Source: Nitrospirae bacterium MYbinv3
Lineage (GTDB): Bacteria; Nitrospirota; Thermodesulfovibrionia; Thermodesulfovibrionales; Magnetobacteriaceae
Direction of reading: 5' to 3'
NCBI GenBank assembly: GCA_002753395.1
Contig: PEAB01000029.1
Span: 1-37,982, forward strand
DNA length: 37,982 nucleotides
The notes beneath the pieces are model-generated. The model was given only the letters and a program-made list of their open reading frames with translations. It did no database searches and was not told the origin of the DNA. The translations under genes and the position numbers were made by a program. Shown one piece after another: positions 10,896 to 16,501 of this stretch (positions within the stretch are counted from its first letter, which is position 1; every line of letters starts with the position of its first letter).

Positions 10896-13800
10896 ATGAT
10901 GACGCAGGGTGAGAGGAAGTTTCTCATGCTACATCTCCTTGCTCTTTTGACGGCATTTTTGATGAAGCTCTACCTGGCAACCATCGTAGAGGGATATCCG
11001 GCGGACATAAGCTGCTTTAGATCGTGGGCAATCTATGTTGCCGAGAGGGGGTTTGCCAACTTCTACAACGGCGAGATATTTGCCGATTATCCGCCTGGAT
11101 ACATCTACGTCCTTTACATCGTTGGCAAGATCAGGCTGGCGCTTTCAATGTCATATTCTACAACAGCGTACCTTGTCCTCGTTAAGCTGCCTCCTATTGC
11201 AACAGACATCATCGCAGCCCACATCGTATACCTCCTTGCTAAGAGAAACTTATCAACAGCAACAGCCTTCTTCCTATCAGCGTTATATGCCTTTAACCCG
11301 GCGGTGATTGTAAATAGTAGCCTCTGGGGGCAGGTAGATGCCGTCTTTACCCTCTGCATCCTGTTGACCTTGATGGCGATTACCAAAGAACGATTGATTG
11401 AAGCATCTGTACTGTTTGCCCTGTCGGTACTCATTAAGCCACAGGCGCTGATCTTTACTCCGGTGATGGCATTTGCCTTCATGCAAAAAAGGTCGTTTAA
11501 GACCATCGCAAGTGGGGTGACCTGCGCTATTGCCTTCTTTGCCATTGCAGTTATACCGTTTTCTTTAAACAAGGGCGTCTTCTGGATCTTTCACCACTAC
11601 CAAAAGACGCTCGCCTCCTATCCGTATGCCTCACTAAATGCCTTTAACCTCTTCTCTCTGACGGGAGGCAACTTTCAGTCAGACTCTACGCTGTTTCTAT
11701 CCCTGCAATACTCTACCTGGGGAGTTATCTTTATCCTCTGGACAGTTATCGTTGCATCGTATTTTTTTTATAAGGACTCATCTCCTAAAAATCTGTCTTT
11801 TATAGCCCTGTTTATCATAACTGCCGTCTACGTTACAACGTCAAAGATGCACGACCGTTACCTGTTTCCAGCCATGTTGATAGCCCTCCTTAACTACATT
11901 CACACAAAGGACAGGCGGATATTATATATCTATGCAGCCATCTCTACCACGCTGTTTATTAATGAGGCATACGTGTTGAGTCTAGCACTGCGAGGGTCTT
12001 TTCATATCCCCGTGTTTGACTCCTTGATGCTGACGGTATCGGCCATAAACGTATCAATATTAATCTGCCTCATACTTGTTGGCAACGACTTAGTCCATAA
12101 CAGGGTCAAGGAGTTTGAAAATGTACCTAAATTCGCCCCCTCCACAAAGACTGATGATGTATTGTTGCCGAGGGTGCATAAGAAATTAATTGGAACAAAG
12201 ATATTTTTTAATGGGGTCAAGGGGACTGGTCCCCTTGCGAATGGGTCTGAGGGGAGGCAGAGCCTCCCCTCCTTTGACAACACCCATGAATTTCTTATGC
12301 GCCCGTTGCCAATGCCAATTGTTGATTTTCTACAGAAAAGGGATTATATAATTATAGCGTTTTTTATATTGCTTAATACCGTTTTAGTCTTTTACAAACT
12401 TGGTTCGTCAAAGGCGCCGGAGACTTACTGGAAACCAGCCGCTGAGACCGAATCCGTAGCCATTGAGTTTGAAAATATAAACGAGGTCTCTAAGGTCTGC
12501 TTCTTTGGCGGTATCGGAGAAGGTCAGTACGGCATAACATACCAAACTCCCCCCCCAACACCCCCCCTGGTGGGACAGCCCAACACCGGTAAACATATCA
12601 ACGCAGGCATGTTGAAACAGGTCTTTGTCTTTGAATGGCGATGCAGCACGGTTGACTTTAGCGCAAACAACGTCTTTGTCAATGTCCAGAAATCCGGCGC
12701 TATGCTTAACGAGATTGGATTTTTTGACAAGTCCAACAACCTCATAAAGATACGATCCCTCAAACACGTTAATCCACACCCCAACAGTGTTGGGAAGGTT
12801 GAGTACCTCATCGACGAGCAGAAGACAGTACCCAATGCGCCTTCATATCTCAACAGCACGTACTTTGACGAGATATACTTTGCCCGCACGGCTTATGAGC
12901 AGATCCACGGCATAACCCCATATTACGAGAACACTCATCCACCATTTGGGAAACACATCATCGCCGTTGGTGTTGCCCTGCTTGGAATGAACCCGTTTGG
13001 CTGGAGGATAGCTGGCGTTGTGGCCGCTATCTTCATGATTGTACTTATGTACGTATTTGGCAGACAGATATTTGACTCTACACGGTATGCCGTTATAGTC
13101 GCCTTTCTAATGACTTTTGAGTTTATGCGCTTCGTGCAGGGTCGCATAGCCACCATCGACATTTTTGCCGTGTGCTTTATTATCATGATGTACTATTTCA
13201 TGTATCGGTACTACGTGCTCAACAGCCACAACAGGTCATTGAAGGAGACTCTACTTCCACTTGGCCTCTCTGGAGCGTCATTTGGCGTGGGCGCAGCCAC
13301 AAAGTGGATATGCCTTTACGCCGGAGCAGGGCTTGCCGTTGTGTTTTTTGCCTCACTTTACTTCAGATACAACGACAATCTAAGGGTAATAGAAAAAACT
13401 TTATTACAGAGATCAAAGAAGAAACTCACTATTAAGAAAGAAACAGCATCACTACCTATTACGACTTTAGGGTTTTATAGGGATACCATATTGTGGGCAT
13501 GTCTGTTCTTTGTCATCATCCCGTTGATAATCTACGGTTTTTCATATCTGCCGCTATGGCTGTCAGAACCTACGCGTACTTTTTTCGACTACGTTGAGAC
13601 AAGCCAAACGCATATGTTTAACTACCATAAGAACTTAGTGGCAACCCATTCTTTCTCATCCAAGTGGTACGAGTGGCCGCTACTGAAAAGACCCCTCTGG
13701 ATGTATGCCGGCCAACCACCCCAGCTTCCTGTGGGGATTAGGGGGGAGGGTCTGGTATCAAGTATAGTGTCGATGGGCAATCCGGCAATCTGGTGGCTGT

Positions 13801-14153
13801 TTGCACCGGTCTTATTAATAGTTGTACTGCTATGGTTTAAGAGCCGTGACAGGGTCTTGTTCTTTCTATTGACAGGGGCGGCGGCTCAGTATCTACCGTG
13901 GGTAGCCGTCCCGCGGTTGACTTTTATATACCATTTCTTTGCAAGTGTCCCTTTCTTGATCCTCTTTATAACTTATGTCCTTAAGTGGTTGGAGGATAGG
14001 AATAAAAGCCTGTGTTATCTCACTTACTGTTATCTTACGGTGGTGTTTGTGTTGTTTGTGCTGTTTTACCCTGTGCTATCAGGTATGGTTGTAAGTAAAT
14101 CATACGTAAGCACGTTTCTTAGATGGTTTGAAAGCTGGATATTGTTTAGTTAA
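10896..14153 (+). CDS. Two-module GT39-type glycosyltransferase, polytopic membrane protein
   Basis: 1085 residues. Module 1 (about 1-410) resembles GPI18/PIG-V-like mannosyltransferases: an extracytoplasmic loop with DISCFRSWA, later YPPGYIYVLY, and NSSLWGQVDAVF. Module 2 (about 475-1085) is a dolichyl/polyprenyl-phosphate mannose-protein mannosyltransferase: catalytic-loop acid pair YFDEIYFAR, then NTHPPFGKHII and WPLLKRPLWMY with GNPAIWW. It is expected to transfer a sugar from a polyprenyl phosphate at the outer face of the membrane. Fused proteins of this type exist in anaerobes. The linker at residues 426-472 is encoded by an inserted repeat element and its target duplication. G/C-rich stretches at 12544-12590 and 13712-13750 encode further insert-like loops. 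GGAG lies nine bases before the ATG; an ATG one codon later is equally possible. Confidence 0.88.
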   Translation: MMTQGERKFLMLHLLALLTAFLMKLYLATIVEGYPADISCFRSWAIYVAERGFANFYNGEIFADYPPGYIYVLYIVGKIRLALSMSYSTTAYLVLVKLPPIATDIIAAHIVYLLAKRNLSTATAFFLSALYAFNPAVIVNSSLWGQVDAVFTLCILLTLMAITKERLIEASVLFALSVLIKPQALIFTPVMAFAFMQKRSFKTIASGVTCAIAFFAIAVIPFSLNKGVFWIFHHYQKTLASYPYASLNAFNLFSLTGGNFQSDSTLFLSLQYSTWGVIFILWTVIVASYFFYKDSSPKNLSFIALFIITAVYVTTSKMHDRYLFPAMLIALLNYIHTKDRRILYIYAAISTTLFINEAYVLSLALRGSFHIPVFDSLMLTVSAINVSILICLILVGNDLVHNRVKEFENVPKFAPSTKTDDVLLPRVHKKLIGTKIFFNGVKGTGPLANGSEGRQSLPSFDNTHEFLMRPLPMPIVDFLQKRDYIIIAFFILLNTVLVFYKLGSSKAPETYWKPAAETESVAIEFENINEVSKVCFFGGIGEGQYGITYQTPPPTPPLVGQPNTGKHINAGMLKQVFVFEWRCSTVDFSANNVFVNVQKSGAMLNEIGFFDKSNNLIKIRSLKHVNPHPNSVGKVEYLIDEQKTVPNAPSYLNSTYFDEIYFARTAYEQIHGITPYYENTHPPFGKHIIAVGVALLGMNPFGWRIAGVVAAIFMIVLMYVFGRQIFDSTRYAVIVAFLMTFEFMRFVQGRIATIDIFAVCFIIMMYYFMYRYYVLNSHNRSLKETLLPLGLSGASFGVGAATKWICLYAGAGLAVVFFASLYFRYNDNLRVIEKTLLQRSKKKLTIKKETASLPITTLGFYRDTILWACLFFVIIPLIIYGFSYLPLWLSEPTRTFFDYVETSQTHMFNYHKNLVATHSFSSKWYEWPLLKRPLWMYAGQPPQLPVGIRGEGLVSSIVSMGNPAIWWLFAPVLLIVVLLWFKSRDRVLFFLLTGAAAQYLPWVAVPRLTFIYHFFASVPFLILFITYVLKWLEDRNKSLCYLTYCYLTVVFVLFVLFYPVLSGMVVSKSYVSTFLRWFESWILFS
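12172..12304 (+). repeat. Hairpin-core element inside the glycosyltransferase gene
   Basis: 133 bp with inverted ends GGGTGCATAAGAAATT (left) and, reversed from the right, GGGCGCATAAGAAATT. The core CAAGGGGACTGGTCCCCTTG is at 12218-12237, with a second hairpin GGGGAGGCAGAGCCTCCCC after it. It is flanked by GTTGCCGA (12164-12171) and GTTGCCAA (12305-12312), an 8-bp target duplication with one change. Element plus duplication is 141 bp, exactly 47 codons, with no stop in the host frame. Confidence 0.85.
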
Positions 14154-16343: not shown

Positions 16344-16501
16344 GGGCGCATAAGAATGTCGTGGGTTTTGTCAAAGAAGGGGAGGCTCTGCCTACTGACG
16401 CAGGGGGTTCGCAACCCCTCCCCTCAGACCCCTCCTCAAGGGGACCAGTCCACTTGACCCCATTAAAGTATGTTTTGTTCCCATAAGTTTCTTATGCGCC
16501 C
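16344..16501 (-). repeat. Hairpin-core element with exact target duplication
   Basis: 158 bp. Inverted ends GGGCGCATAAGAA (left) and TTCTTATGCGCCC (right) are perfect over 13 bp. Core CAAGGGGACCAGTCCACTTG is at 16437-16456, and G/C hairpins precede it. The 8-bp direct repeat TTTTTCAT flanks it exactly (16336-16343 and 16502-16509). This is the clearest evidence that the repeat moves by transposition. Confidence 0.85.

Follow-up and report, generated by a model that had tools for sequence, protein, structure and literature searches.

Results

Inserted element and its host gene

The window, a contig of 37,982 nucleotides from the metagenome-assembled genome of Nitrospirae bacterium MYbinv3, contains a long gene for a putative two-module glycosyltransferase that is interrupted, in frame, by a short palindromic element. 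Features of the locus, together with a second member of the same repeat family, are as follows:

10896-14153, + strand: host gene of 1085 codons for a GT87/GPI18-like module joined to a PMT module (from Pfam and 12 orthologues)
12164-12171, strand not applicable: left copy of the target-site duplication, GTTGCCGA
12172-12304, + strand: MITE-type element inserted in frame, 133 bp (terminal inverted repeats, many genomic copies, absence in orthologues)
12172-12193, + strand: left terminal inverted repeat, almost perfect over its first 16 bp (end motif also at the ends of ISKra4-family copies)
12210-12275, + strand: internal bipartite palindrome, two GC-rich hairpins (dispersed repeat, also found without terminal repeats)
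12283-12304, - strand: right terminal inverted repeat (pairing with the left end)
12305-12312, strand not applicable: right copy of the target-site duplication, GTTGCCAA
16344-16501, strand not applicable: second family member, 158 bp, with perfect 8-bp duplication TTTTTCAT, outside long ORFs

The two ends of the element, GGGTGCATAAGAAATT and GGGCGCATAAGAAATT, show one mismatch in 16 positions and 86% complementarity over 22 nt, and the flanking duplications are identical in seven of eight bases. The figures of an earlier note on this DNA (133 bp, 16-bp inverted ends, 8-bp duplication with one difference) proved correct. The net gain of the gene is 133 + 8 = 141 bp, or 47 codons, the element's own bases occupying codons 426-470. 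As that note had also claimed, the added codons are in frame and free of stops and the ORF of 1085 codons is intact; its statement that the element was turned into protein sequence holds for the open reading frame, the protein product being predicted. RNA of the region 12164-12312 has a predicted fold of -65.2 kcal/mol (z -5.8).

Pfam domains of the 1085-residue protein are GT87 (65-308), PMT (651-835) and PMT_4TMC (902-1081). Hydropathy puts the insert between two helices, 377-395, which is the last hydrophobic one of the GT87/GPI18-like module, and 485-503, the first of the PMT module, in agreement with its earlier placement in the inter-module linker. This linker contains 13 lysine or arginine residues, and the loop bearing the insert is probably cytosolic.

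Orthologues were collected from twelve further genomes of this bacterial family (Nitrospirota, with magnetotactic relatives), which also includes a Candidatus Magnetocorallium MAG. Two congeners, both MAGs, are the nearest (70-72% identity) and the other ten are more distant. The expectation that relatives would lack the inserted residues was borne out in 12/12 cases, with no equivalent 47-residue stretch in any of them; the linker DNA is too diverged among orthologues for the predicted single GTTGCCNA site to be read. The linker shows little conservation, with further lineage-specific expansions close by. Between the aligned NRV and RDY residues it comprises, minus the insert, about 30 residues here vs 36-37 in the two congeners. 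At 12546-12590 of the window, a C-rich, in-frame stretch coding for TPPPTPPLVGQ is absent from all orthologues; we do not call it a second mobile repeat, as no other copy was present in 700 kb of the genome. A separate lineage-specific insertion, QQDQERPGASKNQERPGAENKA, with QERPGA repeated, follows the first PMT helix in one orthologue (L011, genome G002).

In the alignment of orthologues the catalytic DE motif is intact (D658 and E659 invariant), and H681-P682-P683 are invariant as well. Compared pairwise with its two congeners, the window protein has a dN/dS of about 0.13 in the N-terminal and 0.15-0.17 in the C-terminal module, and the congeners compared with each other give 0.17-0.19; these values cover the two modules, the inserted residues having no orthologous counterpart, and mostly reflect the time before insertion. 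Synonymous sites are near saturation (dS >1 in the window comparisons). Both modules look to be under constraint, although the ratios show only that there is no sign of decay. The AlphaFold model of the protein is poor (mean pLDDT 47.9), and the insert, with about 26-30, is among its lowest-scoring parts; disorder of the inserted residues is therefore only suggested.

A large repeat family

The element is no chance structure: it aligns to about 40 sites across this genome with 72-97% identity. The 16-bp end motif, allowing up to two mismatches, gave 196+199 genome matches vs 2+2 for a reversed-pattern control, and from these end counts there are probably some 200 copies of the element. All family counts derive from sampled genome stretches and genome searches in a single metagenome-assembled genome. 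The 56 non-redundant end pairs that were collected fall mainly into length classes of 121-124, 132-133 and 157-162 bp. The commonest length is 133 bp, a value that may be over-represented because the sample is not random and part of it was fetched by match to this element. Target duplications flank 33 of the 56 sampled copies (8 bp in 22 copies, 9 bp in 11), vs 0.7 expected with shuffled flanks; the 8-bp duplication noted earlier is thus right for the present copy, and for the family it has to be widened to 8 or 9 bp.

The element is short, lacks a transposase and has terminal inverted repeats of 16-22 bp. Its family shows target duplications of characteristic length and many genomic copies, and its 22-bp end motif recurs at contig ends that belong to ISKra4-family insertion sequences of the same genome. 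The 133-bp stretch is therefore a member of a large family of MITE type. A search of Rfam for the repeat returned no match.

The core of the element (12210-12275) is itself a dispersed palindrome. Among 82 core matches in 579 kb of the genome, some stretches of which were selected for containing end motifs, 20 are bounded by the terminal repeats at both ends, 23 at one end only and the other 39 at neither. Relatives of the same genus and family possess the core without these terminal ends, and an older palindrome framed by ISKra4-type ends is the best reading of the element. Further core copies in the window lie at 16411, 17703, 19669, 21515, 27526 and 31897, some of them without terminal repeats.

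Probable source of transposase

The 22-bp end motif is found also at the ends of ISKra4-family copies in this genome, where several contigs stop inside longer elements starting with GGGTGCATAAGAAATTCATGGG. Inward from such contig ends, one type leads into the N-terminal and the other into the C-terminal part of a transposase. The C-terminal fragment matches NCBIfam NF033572 (ISKra4 family) with E=2.7e-50 and 171.7 bits (cut-off 205), and a whole-genome search revealed an NF033572-type transposase of 243 bits, above the cut-off, with two stops in frame (contig C57). This is the longest copy, no complete intact ISKra4 element being assembled in this genome. A congener harbours an ISKra4-family element of 1449 bp with an open transposase gene of 455 codons and GGGTGCATAA ends. 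ISKra4-related p-MULT 4 elements (ISAzba1, ISMich2 and ISKra4 groups) have been reported for Nitrospirae and other phyla (PMC3942029). Judged by the common ends, an ISKra4-family element is the probable mobilizer of the MITE in trans.

The IS1 family, hinted at by contig C5, was rejected as mobilizer, as copies of IS1 type end differently (GGTAGTCCTG...) and only one IS1-type end, the chimeric-looking one on that contig, bears the terminal repeat of the MITE family. At locus L087 (5963-6188), an IS1-family element has the MITE end motif in place of its 3' end, and the final bases of the IS1 end come after it; this is either a nested event or a misassembly.

Open frame of the insert

In twelve 133-bp copies, 20 of the 72 frames are stop-free (about 28%), and 133+8, in contrast to 133+9, gives a whole number of codons. 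For a random insertion into a gene, the chance of staying in frame and open is about 9%, as a mean over all lengths in the sample and with an 8-bp duplication assumed. The present copy is the only one interior to a long ORF among the 56 sampled pairs, and whole-genome scans at the protein level revealed no other such copy among the matches listed. A preference for in-frame insertion was rejected, since the single intragenic copy fits survivorship; divisibility of 133+8 by three, together with the proportion of open 133-bp frames, makes the outcome a matter of survivorship and not of design. With about 200 copies, mostly intergenic, one intragenic survivor is unremarkable. At another locus (L122, 2450-2581), a 290-codon ORF has an element at its 5' edge, and the open frame continues from the element into the gene, whose N-terminus it may extend.

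Discussion

We propose that an ISKra4-family transposase acting on matching ends moved a nonautonomous element of MITE type in trans. The element would have landed, with an 8-bp duplication, in the gene of a two-module membrane glycosyltransferase, at the linker, which is not conserved and probably cytosolic, and the gene would since encode 47 extra, probably unstructured residues. The frame was kept since the 141 added bp are a multiple of three and the frame read through the element has no stop, and the insertion would be tolerated because the linker was already variable in length and sequence. The element, its family, the duplication, the absence in orthologues and the open frame are all directly seen; mobilization by an ISKra4-type IS, translation and near-neutrality we infer. 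Taken as a whole, this account, in which the extra residues need no adaptive role, is very probable.

It is unlikely that the gene is instead a young pseudogene or a damaged gene, with its frame open by chance and either the protein impaired or expression of the downstream module lowered by the hairpins. The insert is indeed lineage-specific, the RNA fold is strong and the target duplication differs by only one base, but all 1085 codons are intact, active-site residues are kept, dN/dS is alike in both modules and the genome has no other close copy of this gene. Fusion of a repeat into the gene during assembly is hardly credible: this is a draft metagenome assembly whose contigs often break in related repeats, and the junction of an IS1-type end with a MITE terminal repeat on contig C5 looks chimeric, yet the insert has a family-type 8-bp duplication on both sides, the reading frame is continuous and the closest other copy is only 96% identical.

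Two further readings would assign the inserted residues a function. The family could be a protein-coding module comparable to Rickettsia palindromic elements, recurrently read in frame and supplying a functional peptide; the stop-free, in-frame insert and the share of open frames in 133-bp copies speak for it, but with one copy interior to a long ORF, both in the 56 pairs and among the protein-level matches listed, we consider it very unlikely. Alternatively, the family may be a capture vehicle, in which ISKra4-type ends acquired and dispersed a bipartite palindrome that is older and occurs throughout the bacterial family, the composite here giving the glycosyltransferase a new useful linker segment, a rather improbable scenario.

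The insertion is a clean natural case, backed by 12 uninterrupted orthologues, in which a bacterial mobile repeat has turned into open coding sequence within a conserved enzyme of an organism other than Rickettsia. It also reveals that a MITE family linked to an ISKra4-family element has expanded strongly in Nitrospirota, and indicates that a linker between membrane modules can lengthen in one step. As an isolated case it leaves the understanding of the process unchanged.

The element has a terminal motif in common with ISKra4 copies of the same genome over 22 bp; in contrast to them it has no transposase, and its palindromic interior was not found in the IS. Rickettsia palindromic elements, palindromic repeats of about 150 bp, also reside in frame within protein-coding genes (PMC10969869). 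Theirs is a recurrent phenomenon in unrelated genes, whereas here a single case was found among the matches listed, in a large, otherwise intergenic family with ISKra4-type ends. Further parallels are MITEs with occasional in-frame intragenic copies, QMITE1 and QMITE2 of Coxiella burnetii (PMC5896051) and intragenic ERIC (PMC10969869), which differ in ends, duplications and host. In-frame insertion of MITEs is thus already known in other bacteria; the family and the host are new, and the insert here is in a conserved enzyme with uninterrupted orthologues.
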